A stretch of DNA of 45,678 bases from an uncultured Butyrivibrio sp. (lineage in GTDB: Bacteria > Bacillota > Clostridia > Lachnospirales > Lachnospiraceae): positions 1-45,678 of the forward strand of contig CAMORK010000015.1 in NCBI GenBank assembly GCA_946623755.1. Direction: 5' to 3'. The notes under the pieces are model-generated. The model was given only the letters and a program-made list of their open reading frames with translations, did not search any database and was not told the DNA's origin. The position numbers and the translations under genes are program-made. This document shows positions 20,266 through 40,228 of the stretch, in pieces. Every line of letters begins with the position of its first letter. Position 1 is the stretch's first letter.

Positions 20266-20329
20266 GTTGTCCTCCTAGCGAAATTTTATGATGATATACG
20301 CATGGCTCCACCCTGTTCCTACTATATCA

Positions 20330-20473
20330 TCACATGTTTACATTGAACAGGTTACGAAGTTCATATCCAATAGTATATACCGAAACTCCAAGACCACCAA
20401 CTATTGGTGTAATTCTTTTGAGTTCATATCCGGCTATCTTCCTCTGGAGCAGCAAAACTTCAGGGTTCATCAT
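20330..20473 (-). CDS. Possible 47-residue hydrophobic protein upstream of hprK
   Basis: A minus-strand frame starts ATG ATG at 20468-20473 and ends TGA 64 bp before hprK. The product is short, with a hydrophobic stretch ITPIVGGLGVSVYTIGYEL that could span the membrane and a repeated GYEL motif. The nearest ribosome-like sequence (GAGAGGAAA) is about 15 nt from the ATG, which is too far. No family is recognised. It may be a real small protein or a remnant of the insertion that separates hprK from uvrC. Confidence 0.3.
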   Translation of the reverse strand: MMNPEVLLLQRKIAGYELKRITPIVGGLGVSVYTIGYELRNLFNVNM

Positions 20474-20550
20474 TGCGATTCAACAAAATTTCCTCTCAAC
20501 AATCTGTGAGATATTATATATTAATCGACCGGAATTTGCATCCATGAAAC

Positions 20551-20850
20551 TCAGTCATTTAAATTCATACAGGCATCTATCAGTGACAAAAAATTCTCAT
20601 CTGTCCACTGGTCTGCACTGGTATACATGTGGTCTCCCTTGGAGATGCCTGCATACTGGTAATAAATGTCATTCTCATCAACGAGTGCAAAATACCATTC
20701 GAAGTCGCATGTGTACAGATATTCCGCAACCACTGAATTAAATTTGTTTACTGAGTAGGTATCTTCAAACTCATTAGGCTCTCTGACTCTGATTCCACAT
20801 CCTTTTTTACCATATCCAAATCCTGACTTGAGCAGGCAGATGTGATCATT
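20551..20850 (-). pseudogene. Gene remnant next to repeat array A
   Basis: A minus-strand frame of about 100 codons (end: GDHMYTSADQWTDENFLSLI and then a stop at 20551) has protein-like composition, rich in acidic and aromatic residues. It has no start codon of its own. Upstream it runs straight into the first 43-bp repeat unit (20857). The frame continues through the array to 21060, but that part simply translates the repeats. The most likely reading is a gene that lost its 5' part when the array or flanking DNA arrived. The family is not recognised. Confidence 0.4.
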
Positions 20851-20856
20851 GCCGGA

Positions 20857-21124
20857 TTTTCTACGCCCAAAGGGCACTTTTCCCAATATAGGTAGAAAAA
20901 AATGGTAAGCTAAATTTTTAAACGCCTGATTTTCTACACCCATTAAGCACTTTTTACCATATATATAGAAAAAGAAAAATCGGACTTCTTCAAATTCTAC
21001 GCCCATAGGGCAGTTTTTGGCATATATGTAGAAAATCCGAGCGTTAAAGATTTTTGTCACATAATTTTTCTACGCCCATAAGGCACTTTTTCGCGTATAT
21101 GTATAAAAAATTTGATGCCTAACA
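20857..21124. repeat. Array A: four 43-bp TTTTCTAC...GTAGAAAA units
   Basis: Four imperfect units of exactly 43 bp lie at 20857-20899, 20930-20972, 20993-21035 and 21066-21108. The spacers are 30, 20 and 30 bp. Each unit starts with TTTTCTAC or AATTCTAC. GCCCA and usually GGCAC follow, then a T-run and an ATATA-like stretch. It ends in GTAGAAAA, the reverse complement of the start. A mini-hairpin GCCC/GGGC lies inside units 1 and 3. The 14-mer TTTGATGCCTAACA follows the last unit (21111-21124). Array B at 37923 has the same plan. The array lies between uvrC and hprK. Confidence 0.9.
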
Positions 21125-21181
21125 TTTTTCCTGATCACAGCGACCGGCCTACGGATTCACCGAGATTAACCCCCCTTCATT

Positions 21182-21291
21182 TGCCCATATAAATACCGGA
21201 GCCAATGGACAGTATAACGGGCGCCGCACTTCGGCGCCCGAGTAGCCTTTGGATCCGGCACTAATATTAGCTTATCCAAAGACAGTGGGCA
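21182..21291. other. Structured intergenic element, possible RNA
   Basis: TGCCCA (21182-21187) can pair with TGGGCA (21286-21291), closing a region with two strong hairpins. One is a 9-bp perfect stem, CGGGCGCCG with CGGCGCCCG (21218-21240). The other is CTTTGGAT with ATCCAAAG (21247-21281), whose loop contains the palindrome CTAATATTAG. The GC-rich stem is not followed by a T-run, so it is not a normal terminator. It could be a structured RNA, a mobile-element end or a remnant. No known family is recognised. Confidence 0.4.
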
Positions 21292-21352
21292 TATAACCCT
21301 CTGCCGTATACACAGTTAACAGCCTCCATCTGTTGCAATTGCTGAAAATAAT

Positions 21353-21414
21353 CCCCTGACTCCGTCCCCGGGGACCATTTGGGGGAAGTCATAGAGAACC
21401 ATCCCCAGTGACTC
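21353..21414 (-). repeat. REP-like GGGGA repeat forming the 3' end of uvrC
   Basis: The stretch contains two related blocks in near-dyad order on the plus strand: GACTCCGTCCCCGGGGAC and AACCATCCCCAGTGACTC. The second lies inside uvrC and encodes its last residues (GVTGDGSL). A related block, GAGTCACCGGGGACG, occurs at 37892-37906 directly before array B. Short GTCACYGGGGA repeats of this kind are dispersed in many Clostridia genomes (from memory, not checked here). Confidence 0.6.
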
Positions 21415-23281
21415 CTTCACCGTGGAAGAAGTCGTAGATCTGCTGCGCAGTACTCATCGGGATCTCGGGAACAGCCGCCAGGTCTTCAACGGAGGACTGC
21501 CTGATATCCTCGATGGACTTAAACGCCTTCATGAGAGCCTTGCGCCTTGCGGGGCCGATGCCCGGTATGTCATCAAGAGAGCTCTTTACCTGTGCCTTGC
21601 TACGCAAAGACCTGTGGTACTCAATCGCGAAACGATGCGCTTCGTCCTGAATTCTTGTTATAAGCTTGAAGCCCTCAGACCTGGTATCTATCGGAAGCTC
21701 CACATTATTATAGTAGAGCCCTCTTGTCCTGTGGTTGTCGTCCTTGACCATTCCGCAGACGGGAATAGTTATGCCAAGCTCATCAAGCACCTGAAGACAG
21801 ATATTTACCTGGCCTCGTCCGCCATCCATAAGGATGAGGTCCGGGAACTTGGTAAAGCTTCCGTACTGAGCATCAATATCCCTGACTTCAAGGTCATGGC
21901 GCTCCTCTATTCCGTGAAGAAGCCTTCTTGTCAGGACTTCCTTCATGCATGCATAATCATCGGGACCGGCAACGGTCTTGATCCTGAACTTACGATAATC
22001 GCTCTTTTTGGGCTTGCCCTTTTCATAGACAACCATGGAGCCAACATTTGCAAAACCGCTGATATTTGAGATATCATAGGCCTCCATTCTGGTAAGCCCC
22101 TTGATACCCAGCAGGTTCTCTATCTCTTTGACTGCTCCGATAGTCCTGCCTTCCTCACGCTTGATCCTCTCCTTGTCCTTTGAAAGGACCAGCTCAGCGT
22201 TCTGAGCAGCAAGCTCCATGAGCTTTTCCTTCTGACCGCGCTCAGGCACGGTAATATACACGCGGCTCCCCTTTCTCTGGGTCAGCCACTTCTCGATAAT
22301 ATCCATGTCCTCGATTTCATCCGGAAGCATAAGCTGTCTCGGAATGAAAGGAGTTCCTGCATAGAACTGCTTGACGAAGTTACCGAGAATCTCCTGCTTG
22401 GGAGTCTCCGAAACATGTGTCATATAGAAGTGTTCTCGGCCTATGAGCCTTCCGTCGCGGACAAAGAATACCTGAACAACGGCATCCTTGTCATCAGCTG
22501 CAATTGCTACTATATCCTTATCCTCCATGGAGGAGTCAGTCATCTTCTGTTTCTGAGCAACCACCTTGACCGAGGCGATGAGATCCCTGTATCTTGCCGC
22601 ATTCTCGAAATCAAGTTCGTCTGAAGCAGCCTCCATCTTCTCCTGTAAATCCTTCAGTATCACAGAATAATTACCATTCAGAAAATCCAGCGCCTTGTCG
22701 ATCCTCTCACGATACTCTTCCTTGGTAACATGCCCGTCACAAGGCCCACAGCACTGCTTCATGTGGTAATTAAGACACGGCCTCTCAAGTCCTATATCCC
22801 TCGGCAGTACGCGATTGCAGGTCCTAAGCCCATATAACTTATTTATCAGTTCAATCGTATCCTTCACAGCAGCCGCACTGGTAAATGGTCCGAAGTATCT
22901 TGACTTGTCCTTCTTCATGAGGCGGGAAAAGAGAATTCGCGGATAATCTTCTGCAACGGTAACCTTTATATAAGGATAAGTCTTGTCATCCTTAAGGAGC
23001 GTGTTGTACCTGGGGCAATGCTCCTTGATCAGGTTGTTCTCAAGAACCAGCGCCTCAAGCTCAGAATCCGTTACGATATACTCAAATCTCGCTATCTGTT
23101 TAACCATGCGGTCGATCTGAGGACCACGTCCAATATTTGCACGAAAATAAGACCTGACACGATTGTGCAGGTTTATGGCCTTTCCGACATACATGATGGT
23201 GTCGTTCTCATCACGCATGATATAGACTCCCGGGTTCTTCGGGAGCTTTTTAAGTTCTTCCTGAATGTCAAAGTTTCCCAT
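21389..23281 (-). CDS. uvrC: Excinuclease ABC subunit C
   Basis: UvrC makes the two incisions of nucleotide excision repair after UvrA/UvrB damage recognition. The 630-residue protein has the N-terminal GIY-YIG nuclease ([18 protein letters not shown] at about 19-36), a UVR motif (about 205-240, [16 protein letters not shown]), the RNase H-like 5' nuclease domain (about 385-545, [11 protein letters not shown] and [13 protein letters not shown]) and tandem helix-hairpin-helix motifs near the end ([18 protein letters not shown]). The last eight residues come from a REP-like repeat, so the native C-terminus may have been replaced or extended. The upstream HPr terminator (23312-23350) separates it from the mannitol operon. 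Confidence 0.97.
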
Positions 23282-37864: not shown

Positions 37865-37891
37865 ACTTTTCCTCTCTTCTGTTGGTCGCGT

Positions 37892-37920
37892 GAGTCACCG
37901 GGGACGTTTCAGTTTGACTC
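37892..37920. repeat. Second copy of the GAGTCAC-GGGGA repeat
   Basis: GAGTCACCGGGGACG followed shortly by TTTGACTC lies directly before array B and about 30 bp upstream of the discoidin gene start. It resembles the block at the 3' end of uvrC (21395-21414), read in the opposite strand. Confidence 0.5.
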
Positions 37921-37922
37921 AT

Positions 37923-38178
37923 TTTTCTTTGCCCACGGGGCACTTTTTCAACTATAGGTAGAAAGATTTAAAGGTTAAAATTTTCAAATGCCCAATTTTC
38001 TACGCCCACAGCCAGTTTTTTGTTATATGGGTAGAAAATGAAGAATCAAATTCTACGCCCACAAGCATCTTTTACTCATATAAGTAGAAAATATGTCCAA
38101 GATTACTTTTTAATCAAATTTCCTTCTACGCCCACGGAGCATTTTCCCCGCTATAGGTAGAAAATTTGATGCCTAACA
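37923..38178. repeat. Array B: four 43-bp TTTTCTAC...GTAGAAAA units
   Basis: Units lie at 37923-37965, 37996-38038, 38049-38091 and 38122-38164, each exactly 43 bp, with spacers of 30, 10 and 30 bp. The plan matches array A: the third unit again begins AATTCTAC, the first spacer shares an AAATTTT-AAA-GCC pattern with that of array A, and the same 14-mer TTTGATGCCTAACA follows (38165-38178). The array starts 7 bp beyond the stop of the DUF2264 gene and fills the gap to the discoidin gene. Confidence 0.9.
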
Positions 38179-38185
38179 CTTTGGC

Positions 38186-40228
38186 TTAAACTGAGAATCT
38201 GCCTTCGATGCCATAGAAGTCAATCACTCTTACTTCTCCGCTCTTTAAATAAATCTTCACAGGGCCGTAGCCGCCGCAGTTCTGGGAATCTGTGTATTCC
38301 ACTTTCTTTATAGGAAAGATTTCATCCTCAGTAAAATCCTCAAGTGACTCCTTGGTAATAACCTGTGAGATGAGGAAGTAGGGCTCGTACCCATACTGCT
38401 TCTCTCTGATTGTCTTGGCGTACATGACGACGGACTTTTTGCTGTCGGGATTTGTCCCTTCAGAGTCGATGCGCTCTATACTGCTCCAGCCGTCAAACAC
38501 AGTAAAGGCCATCTGCTTCTCTTTTCCCGTGTGATCATGTCCCTTAAGGACTGCAGCTCTGGCACCGTCCTTCTCCAAAAATGTGACATCTGTGCCATTA
38601 TCAGGAAAGCCAAATGCACCCAGGGTAATCTCAATCGGCCTTCTGTACATACGTATCTTGTCGGCTCTTATGATTCCGTAGGGAACAGCAAAGTCTGCCA
38701 GATCAATGGCTGTGCGCCAGTGACACTCTGTCTCCATCTCGTAGTCAAAGAACTGTCTCCTGTAGAGAACATCATCCTTTTCACCCGCCCAGTAGGTGAC
38801 ATTACCGCGAAGAACAGTATCCTCATCCGTGTACCTTATCACATACTGCTGGGATTCCACCGCTCTGTCCACGGTTGCCTCCCACGGGAATTTGGTGTTA
38901 AAGACAAGCTTGGAATAATTGTTCATACCATGCTCATCATCTTTATGCTTAACAACCTTACCTGTCCTGAGCTCTGTTATACCATTAGCTTCATGGTTTG
39001 CCATGCAAAGTCCGGGACCATCCAGCGTCCATACCTTTGTCTCATTCTCTTTAAGTTCATCCCACAGGCCGTTATTCTCCCTGGCTGTCCAGAATGGATG
39101 ATCCTCCGGAAGATGCAGGCACAAAAGAGCTTTTGCCAGCCAGAAGGGTGATTCCGCGCAGGAGTAGCCCTGAAGGAGCGGCGAAAACGGTCCGTAGAAC
39201 CCAAGAGTCGGCACGCCTTCCCACAAGAAGTCATCTCTTGTAAAAAACTGCAACAGTGATCCTGAGCAGATACGCCTTGCCTGTCCCGGATCCACTGATG
39301 GATTTCTCATCATGAGATTCCCGTCGATTGCACTGGTGGCTGCGTTTCTGTAAATCCCGCTCCTGCCCCACATATTGGTAAATCCGTCCCTGTCAAAGAA
39401 ATACGGATATGTCTTCATTAGTTCATTAGAGTTCTCTTCAAATCTCGCTGCGATAAACGGCTCTTTTTCATAGCCATACCAGTTGTTCCAGATGGCTGTG
39501 TACATGTTAAAAGCCCAGCAGGAGTAATAGTCAAAAGAATGCCCATCGCGATACCAGCCATCGCCAACGTAATAATGAAGAATATTCTCGGCGTGATCTC
39601 TCATGATATCCTCGTCGATCTCATATCCGTTCATATAAAGGAAAGCGAGATCCAGCATGTTAAAGAGCCTCCAGTTTTGGGGCACTGTGTTTGCATGTGC
39701 AAAGTCAGACAGAAAATCTGCGATCCTGTCCTTCTCCTCTTTACTGTACTTATCCCAGATTTCCTCCGCTGACATCCACAGGCAGATGACAAGAGCCGCA
39801 GTCTCCACAGTCTGCTGATAGGCAGCAAACAGATTTCCGCTCTCATCTGCGCTCTTCATATCTGTGTAGTTCAGGACGTAGTTCGCATCCCCCGGAGTTA
39901 CTGCAGAAAGTACCTGCTTTGCATAGTAGTCCCTGACATTTATTCCGTTAAGCTCAAGGTCCGGCTTGATATGCAAAAGAGGCGCAGCAATGAAAAAAGA
40001 TCTTGCCAGTCCCTCAAACACTTCCGCCTTATAGCGCCACTGAGGATGTCCCGGCTGCGGGTATGTTATCTTAGTCTCATACCTTGGCATAACCACCGGA
40101 TCTTCGATTGATTTCAGATTATTAAACACTCCGGAAAGAAGGTACTCTGCCGCTTCTATCCAGCTCTCTCTGGTAAGCCCTGTGTAAGGGCTGAGTTCAA
40201 AGTCTGTATGTTCAGGTTTAAATACCAT
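38186..40228 (-). CDS. DUF2264-family protein, probable uronate-acting glycoside hydrolase
   Basis: This 680-residue protein resembles the DUF2264 family. The N-terminal two-thirds (about 10-400) is an alpha/alpha-barrel-like region with DANYVLNYTDMKSADESG, RLFNMLDLAFLYMNG and GWYRDGHSFDYYSCWAFNMY. The C-terminal part is beta-rich. Some DUF2264 proteins are, as I recall, assigned to CAZy family GH154 with beta-glucuronidase activity, which would fit this operon, but I cannot confirm it here. No signal peptide is seen, so it acts in the cytoplasm. It lies 18 bp after the GH88 gene, and GGGGGAG precedes the ATG. Confidence 0.75.
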   Translation of the reverse strand: MVFKPEHTDFELSPYTGLTRESWIEAAEYLLSGVFNNLKSIEDPVVMPRYETKITYPQPGHPQWRYKAEVFEGLARSFFIAAPLLHIKPDLELNGINVRDYYAKQVLSAVTPGDANYVLNYTDMKSADESGNLFAAYQQTVETAALVICLWMSAEEIWDKYSKEEKDRIADFLSDFAHANTVPQNWRLFNMLDLAFLYMNGYEIDEDIMRDHAENILHYYVGDGWYRDGHSFDYYSCWAFNMYTAIWNNWYGYEKEPFIAARFEENSNELMKTYPYFFDRDGFTNMWGRSGIYRNAATSAIDGNLMMRNPSVDPGQARRICSGSLLQFFTRDDFLWEGVPTLGFYGPFSPLLQGYSCAESPFWLAKALLCLHLPEDHPFWTARENNGLWDELKENETKVWTLDGPGLCMANHEANGITELRTGKVVKHKDDEHGMNNYSKLVFNTKFPWEATVDRAVESQQYVIRYTDEDTVLRGNVTYWAGEKDDVLYRRQFFDYEMETECHWRTAIDLADFAVPYGIIRADKIRMYRRPIEITLGAFGFPDNGTDVTFLEKDGARAAVLKGHDHTGKEKQMAFTVFDGWSSIERIDSEGTNPDSKKSVVMYAKTIREKQYGYEPYFLISQVITKESLEDFTEDEIFPIKKVEYTDSQNCGGYGPVKIYLKSGEVRVIDFYGIEGRFSV

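Follow-up and report, generated by a model that had tools for sequence, protein, structure and literature searches.

What are the 43-bp dyad repeats that form two arrays in a 45,678-nt stretch of DNA from an uncultured Butyrivibrio sp. (assembly GCA_946623755.1, contig CAMORK010000015.1, positions 1 to 45,678; the whole stretch is called the window here), and which protein might they serve? We consider it likely that the units of these arrays, A (20857-21108) and B (37923-38164), are cognate binding platforms of a family of nuclease-like proteins, one type of which has become dispersed in the genome. That the nuclease itself drives this dispersal is a more tentative proposal, to which we give rather less than an even chance.

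A four-unit module of 43-bp dyads

Array A consists of four 43-bp units, all on the + strand, at 20857-20899 (TTTTCTAC...GTAGAAAA), 20930-20972, 20993-21035 and 21066-21108, with start-to-start steps of 73, 63 and 73 bp. The four units of array B, likewise on the + strand, lie at 37923-37965, 37996-38038, 38049-38091 and 38122-38164, and their steps are 73, 53 and 73 bp. All eight are matched by R1, a sequence-only model from 41 units. The first-pass annotation of this DNA had described four 43-bp units in array A, and all four were recovered at the starts given above; its start of the array also held, while its end at 21124 overshoots the last unit by 16 bp. The 8-bp inverted arms that it reported are exact in unit 1 only, with units 2, 3 and 4 keeping 7, 6 and 7 of the 8 arm pairs, and the inner GCCC/GGGC pairing is perfect in units 1 and 3 and imperfect in units 2 and 4. 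The strict spacing of both arrays is a feature absent from that annotation. An exact dyad pattern matched twice in the window and not once in 100 dinucleotide shuffles, and at up to three mismatches it gave 31 matches in the own genome vs 0 for a reversed control pattern; these two controls rule out a chance origin of the units.

Further copies, which the first-pass annotation had proposed to look for in this genome and its genus, proved to be many. The own assembly (60% complete, 2.30 Mb) contains 47 R1 matches at E ≤ 1, 44 of them at E ≤ 0.001, and these 44 are spread over 15 loci with good units. Under stricter filters that lose weak matches, six of 79 Butyrivibrio genomes were matched (the own genome with 44 units, Butyrivibrio sp. 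XPD2006 and NC2007 with 40 each, G217 with 7 that are diverged, G225 with 4 and G013 with a single weak one), as was one of 150 genomes of the wider family sampled at one per genus, the own genome again. The dyad pattern found 11 stretches in genome_contigs, all from Butyrivibrio, and none in viral_contigs.

Among the arrays with at least two good units in four genomes (29 arrays, not independent of one another, as orthologous arrays were counted once per genome), 25 follow a four-unit plan of either 73-63-73 (15 arrays) or 73-53-73 (10 arrays, of which four have a single step that deviates by 1 bp), and the other four read 63-73-73, 73-73-63-73, 73-73 and 63. A single good unit occurs at ten further places, four of these at contig ends. 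The two alternative middle steps differ by 10 bp, about one helical turn, and at 10.5 bp per turn the left half-sites lie within 34 degrees of one another, as do the right half-sites. In several arrays, including A, B, C15B and C20, the third unit begins AATTCTAC, so that position within the module seems to be inherited and the module to be copied as one piece. Judged by these patterns, copying involves the whole four-dyad module and not single 43-bp units.

A predicted nuclease gene between tex and metK

The candidate cognate gene of the window arrays is a 263-aa open reading frame (ORF) that stands, with arrays on its flanks, at the same locus in four genomes (XPD2006, G000, G217 and NC2007). 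Its neighbours are presumably tex and metK, to judge by their protein sequences. The flanking arrays are mutually inverted and 94% identical over 243 bp in XPD2006; they are inverted in G217 too, are reduced to one decayed inverted unit in G000, and are direct in NC2007. Those of G217 and NC2007 are of a diverged type, roughly TTTYCATAC / TATATATAGAAA.

Three observations on these and other loci can be added. The 3′ end of tex beside the gene contains in-frame repeats (ATSSARRPA..., 42/48-bp periods) whose number varies between species (L071, L093, L106, L109). Elsewhere, window-type arrays are stacked beside decayed units of the diverged type (TTTTCCATACCCC...), mostly at 63/73 spacing, in NC2007 (L083, L085, L086, L088) and G225 (L104), possibly as two array generations at one site. 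At L287 in G217 (end of C186), the last part of the contig recurs in inverted orientation at its very end, probably through an assembly artefact.

The 263-aa protein had no Pfam or NCBIfam match above cut-off, and no Pfam family was matched by more than two of 41 members of its family. Relatives are present in 69 of 79 Butyrivibrio genomes, with up to nine per genome, and in 99 of 299 sampled Lachnospiraceae genomes (298 genera). In a phylum sample, 24 of 398 genomes match the family profile, five of them Lachnospiraceae; outside this family the profile is matched only in part, in most cases by long ORFs that resemble its C-terminal half. Six of the outside matches are to the N-terminal part of the profile alone, in short ORFs of about 90-200 aa (G712, G755, G667, G546, G438 and G507; loci L265, L267, L273, L268, L269 and L270), so this part may also exist as a separate small protein.

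The C-terminal domain is predicted to have an alpha-beta-beta-beta-alpha-beta core of the PD-(D/E)XK type. E161, D191 and E206 are invariant in all 41 members, K223 is nearly so, and the three acidic residues are by their position the predicted active-site residues of such a domain. The same C-terminal domain is matched, in 41 of 41 members and at best with 9e-33, by the C-terminal region (about residues 1090-1220) of the PADLOC model PDC-S68, and it is shared by eight long proteins (723-1332 aa) from viral contigs. The N-terminal region is modelled as a helix, three strands and a long helix. An arm-binding, AP2-like domain had been expected there; the matches listed for residues 1-109 are instead coiled coils such as prefoldin. 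The only match of a PDB sequence search (E 0.038) was taken as chance. A plasmid and a phage origin were likewise set aside: one paralog protein matches 9 of 72,556 plasmid records, in none of which 80% of the query lies together by the count of the search tool, and 3 of 50,697 phage records, all of them unannotated faecal contigs and one covering 95%.

Phased arrays beside paralogs

Many paralogs of the 263-aa protein are flanked by tandem arrays with unrelated inverted half-sites, among them GGTATTAC/GTAATACC, GGGTACAAA/TTTGTACCC, TGCATCAC/GTGATGCA, TGGGCAAG/CTTGCCCA, CGTGGGCCTG/CAGGCCCACG and TGCGTCGGA/TCCGACGCA. At L230 (455-1296), for example, a family gene is followed 354 bp downstream by a clean array of about 13 units of 64 bp (TGCGTCGGA...TCCGACGCA). 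A 14-bp tandem repeat unlike the usual dyad arrays (CTGTTGGAATTTGC) occupies L167 2432-2719, 143 bp upstream of its family gene.

We evaluated this association by self-matching at lags of 45-80, taking a score of 20 or more as positive, at 54 family loci (L125-L178) and at 40 control loci about 20-30 kb from members in genomes having the family; L121-L124, the discovery set, were excluded. The test was positive at 30 of the 54 family loci and at one of the 40 controls (p 8.6e-9). As L125-L150 had been inspected before the test was designed, the later loci are given apart: 13 of 26 were positive in the former set and 17 of 28 in L151-L178 (p 7e-8 vs controls). Arrays at least half non-coding were found at 21 family loci and at one control. 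A larger control of 800 kb, of which 87,589 bp are non-coding, held 12 arrays of score at least 24; eleven of these are coding with periods divisible by 3, and the sole non-coding one is 75 bp away from a family gene, the only one found in this control. With one ORF caller used throughout, there were 20 arrays in 62,580 bp of non-coding DNA at family loci vs none in 107,263 bp elsewhere (p 2e-9), and the later loci alone contributed 9 arrays in 28,270 bp (p 7e-7); two different ORF callers gave 19 arrays vs 0.

The 30 positive loci have best periods that form clusters at 51-54, 61-63 and 70-75, near 52, 63 and 73 bp or 5, 6 and 7 helical turns. None of 2000 uniform draws reached this concentration over spacings of 9-12 bp (best 9.85), and the Rayleigh p at 10.5 is 3e-6. 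Repeats bracket the family gene at 21 of 69 loci, in inverted orientation at 12 and in direct orientation at 9, vs one of 40 controls, where L149 and L227, which are one locus, and the nearly identical L228 and L229 are all counted, here as in the position and 7-mer tallies below.

Array sequence and protein identity

The proteins at L228-L230 are 84-99% identical, and their arrays have GTCGGA/TCCGAC in common. GGTATTAC is common to L134 and L135, with 85% identical proteins, and to L132 (55-58%); the array at L142 differs, its protein being 50-54% identical to those of L134, L135 and L132. Over all pairs compared, repeated 7-mers are common to 7 of 8 at 75% identity or above (one of these pairs is a locus fetched twice), to 3 of 28 at 50-75% and to 40 of 705 below. 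The miss in the top bin, L121/L122, arose because the score had picked another, 48-bp repeat. On sequence comparison, then, array sequence turns over with the protein. A second model, R2, for the GTCGGA type, matched three of 79 genomes and only beside its gene. With R1 dispersed and R2 confined to its own gene, one of the two types tested is dispersed.

Presence and absence in relatives

Both window arrays are missing from some relatives. At array B the missing stretch spans 37868-38189 (no strand assigned), about 322 bp being absent from NC2007 and about 305 bp of it from XPD2006; the flanks are contiguous in NC2007 and nearly so in XPD2006. The stretch is made up of a repeat resembling repetitive extragenic palindromic (REP) elements (GAGTCACCGGGGACGTTTCAGTTTGACTCAT; 37892-37922, + strand), which directly abuts the array and has many copies in the relatives, the array itself, and a tail of about 24 bp (TTTGATGCCTAACACTTTGGCTTA; 38165-38188, + strand), the approximate end of which was set by comparison with the relatives. 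At array A, XPD2006 is without window positions 20650-21181 and G225 without most of 20296-21387. A small-gene remnant (20551-20852, − strand) has its 5′ end cut off at the array; G217 homology extends to 20852, stops inside the gene 5 bp before the array, and is followed in G217 by the gene start. Downstream, a tail at 21109-21156 (+ strand, AATTTGATGCCTAAC...ACCGGCCTACGGAT, end approximate) resembles the sequence downstream of the C17 and C36 arrays and may belong to the inserted module. In NC2007 an array occupies the place that corresponds to array A, at contig ends.

As array B is missing in two relatives and array A in two, the module probably spreads by insertion, which is the simplest reading of these presences and absences. 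Other arrays occupy a single locus in more than one species and have different numbers of units there, with one good unit on C22, for instance, vs four in XPD2006 and NC2007. The first-pass suggestion of a family of small palindromic elements agrees with the many copies, the fixed geometry and this variation among relatives; its suggestion of protein-binding DNA would fit the same geometry together with the neighbouring gene family.

Proposed mechanism and alternatives

We propose that each 43-bp unit is an inverted pair of half-sites (TTTTCTAC / GTAGAAAA) that would be bound by a dimer of a small nuclease-like protein, encoded for the window arrays by the 263-aa ORF between tex and metK. With the four units in helical register, four dimers could assemble side by side, and an array adjoining a gene would be the platform of that gene's protein. 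The same plan, a gene with a helically phased dyad array of its own half-site, would hold at many Lachnospiraceae paralogs. In the Butyrivibrio clade of the window, copies of the module would have reached more than ten sites and so produced solo arrays, A and B among them; in the one case worked out, the copy probably came as an insert of about 300 bp. Breaks at the arrays and their repair would alter unit number and, in this clade, lead to a homing-like dispersal. We infer the binding, the cutting, and the spread and resizing by cutting and repair.

Several points weigh against this proposal. The structure is modelled with modest confidence (mean pLDDT 68.9, pTM 0.46, linker 103-146 below 50); Foldseek with this model gave no match at E below 0.001, and the motif reads WEH instead of E-x-K, with H207 in the lysine position. 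In NC2007, the arrays flanking the gene are of the diverged type and the solo arrays mostly of the window type, and G225 (64% complete) has four good units and no ortholog of at least 71% identity. Twenty-four of the 54 paralog loci are without an array by the main test, the own-genome paralog loci L221 and L222 are without a dyad array, and some of the arrays counted are short, more than 1 kb from the gene or coding-like. Per non-coding base, the first control gives a p of only 0.03, because it has just 16 kb of non-coding DNA. The sharing of 7-mers already drops at 50-75% identity, and the pattern arises partly because close orthologs are expected to have near-identical DNA. R2, which was the only type tested besides R1, shows no dispersal. 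As for insertion, array B has no clear target-site duplication in the two relatives compared, where the module ends are approximate, and absence in relatives could be loss.

The arrays might instead be operators, with the protein regulating its own gene and, in the clade of the window, the neighbours of the solo arrays, through a nuclease fold that no longer cuts. Arrays do adjoin the gene, 11 of the 29 that lie within 150 bp of it being upstream, and a gene starts 58 bp downstream of array B. The other 18 close arrays are downstream, however, in a tally that counts one locus twice and has two near-identical loci in it, and the solo arrays sit between convergent, tandem and divergent genes alike. 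The neighbours in the window look unrelated (HPr kinase and UvrC beside array A; DUF2264 and a weakly matched F5/8-type C beside array B), and the acidic residues are invariant in 41 of 41 members. We consider this explanation unlikely.

The main alternative for the spreading step is hitch-hiking on the REP-like repeats. Solo arrays would then be passengers of repeats moved by a Y1 transposase of the RAYT (REP-associated tyrosine transposase) type, and the nuclease-like gene would have no part in their movement. Of 38 arrays, 16 have a REP core within 150 bp, compared with 7 of 580 background windows, a contrast that is inflated because the background windows are mostly coding; the end of the REP-like repeat abuts the first unit both in array B and on C17, and the stretch missing at array B includes the repeat. 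However, 22 of the 38 arrays have no REP core nearby, and REP-driven spread appears to us improbable. Two further observations concern these repeats. The REP-like repeat GAGTCA..GGGGACGTTTCAGTTTGACTCA also stands upstream of the C17 and C36 arrays, and dozens of its copies are among the matches listed in NC2007, XPD2006 and G225. A second REP-like repeat (TGACTCCGTCCCCGGGGA and TGACTCCTTCACCGTGGA) lies downstream of array A at 21357-21426, and sequence resembling it also adjoins arrays on C13, C17 and C61.

The arrays could also be nucleoid-structuring satellites, protein-bound scaffolds of chromosome organisation such as have been proposed for Bacillus repeats. Helical phasing would suit this role, and PMC8161180 proposes a protein that polymerises on constant-size repeats and stabilises the nucleoid. 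The arrays are few and patchy, though (six of 79 genomes for R1, three for R2), and the predicted nuclease domain of the neighbouring protein is apparently intact, which makes a scaffold quite improbable.

Transcription of each unit into a structured RNA hairpin, another first-pass suggestion, is the least credible explanation, without support from the pair counts, RNAalifold or Rfam. Over 41 units, 82.3% of the cells of the proposed structure are standard pairs, but all 500 shuffles reach this pairing and 494 of 500 reach the covariation score. None of the 12 proposed pairs is changed on both sides, so that the compensating arm changes sought in the 41 units were not found; RNAalifold predicted no pairs from the unit alignment, and the Rfam 15 scan of the window gave no match at the gathering score. 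CCC at positions 10-12 is invariant, and the GCCC side is nearly invariant while its GGGC partner drifts. The conserved blocks (TTCTACGCCCA, CACTTTT, TATA and GTAGAAAA) are as expected for a protein site with an asymmetric core, and the 43-bp units are probably DNA sites rather than RNA hairpins.

Comparison with known systems

CRISPR arrays resemble these arrays in having regular repeats of similar length and spacing. The units here are degenerate (84% mean column identity) and separated by spacers of only 10, 20 or 30 bp, in agreement with the first-pass view that this is not CRISPR, although no CRISPR tool or cas search was run. With REP/REPIN elements and their RAYT (TnpA-REP) there is a likeness in outline: the family gene is bracketed by repeats at some loci, and one type consists of short intergenic palindromic elements that are dispersed while the gene stays at one locus; dispersal here holds for R1 and not for R2. 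In contrast to that system, the family protein has a predicted PD-(D/E)XK-type domain and not a Y1/HUH transposase, and the window units combine strict helical spacing with a lack of hairpin covariation.

PDC-S68, a candidate defence family in PADLOC, has its C-terminal domain in common with the family described here; its models are about 1200 aa long, whereas our family is of about 260 aa and has another N-terminus. The homing endonuclease I-Bth0305I (catalytic domain, PDB 3r3p) differs in that here the putative site consists of tandem units next to the gene and occurs dispersed in a single clade, with no intron or occupied target gene, and in that homing-like spread is here a proposal.

In the literature found, which leaves most subscription journals outside its coverage, such arrays are not linked to a gene family. 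The main texts of PMC6749651 and PMC3733652 contain no mention of Butyrivibrio, and that of PMC3733652 none of Clostrid- either. The nearest published description is in PMC8161180 (Subirana and Messeguer), which reports non-coding tandem repeats of 51-53 nt (52) in Bacillus and other Firmicutes, constant in size and variable in sequence, with a short motif and its reverse within the same repeat, several families, and partial conservation between strains; it also states that there is no evidence for a protein interacting specifically with the repeats. Compared with this account, some of our paralog arrays are alike, 11 of the 30 positive loci having a constant period of 51-53 with unrelated sequences. 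The window arrays are unlike them, with 73-63-73 and 73-53-73 in place of one period of about 52, and our set further differs in having periods near 63 and 73 as well, in adjoining one gene family, and in including one type built as a constant module of four units, with dispersed copies in the genome.

A wider generalisation is possible, if doubtful: these loci may belong to a large unnamed class of nuclease-plus-array systems in which each protein has its own inverted half-site and a phased array as its platform, paralog divergence yields new specificities, and arrays grow, shrink and in some lineages spread, and the same or an equivalent protein might explain the constant-size repeats of Bacillus and Paenibacillus. 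Should binding be confirmed, the family would supply a naturally occurring set of sequence-specific DNA binders whose specificities can be read off, and it would add a further way for short repeats to spread through bacterial genomes. Satellites of constant size and variable sequence are a published puzzle in bacteria, and a predicted-nuclease gene family beside arrays whose sequence changes with the protein makes that puzzle directly testable; the probable link of the window repeats to this family may help to explain constant-size bacterial repeats.
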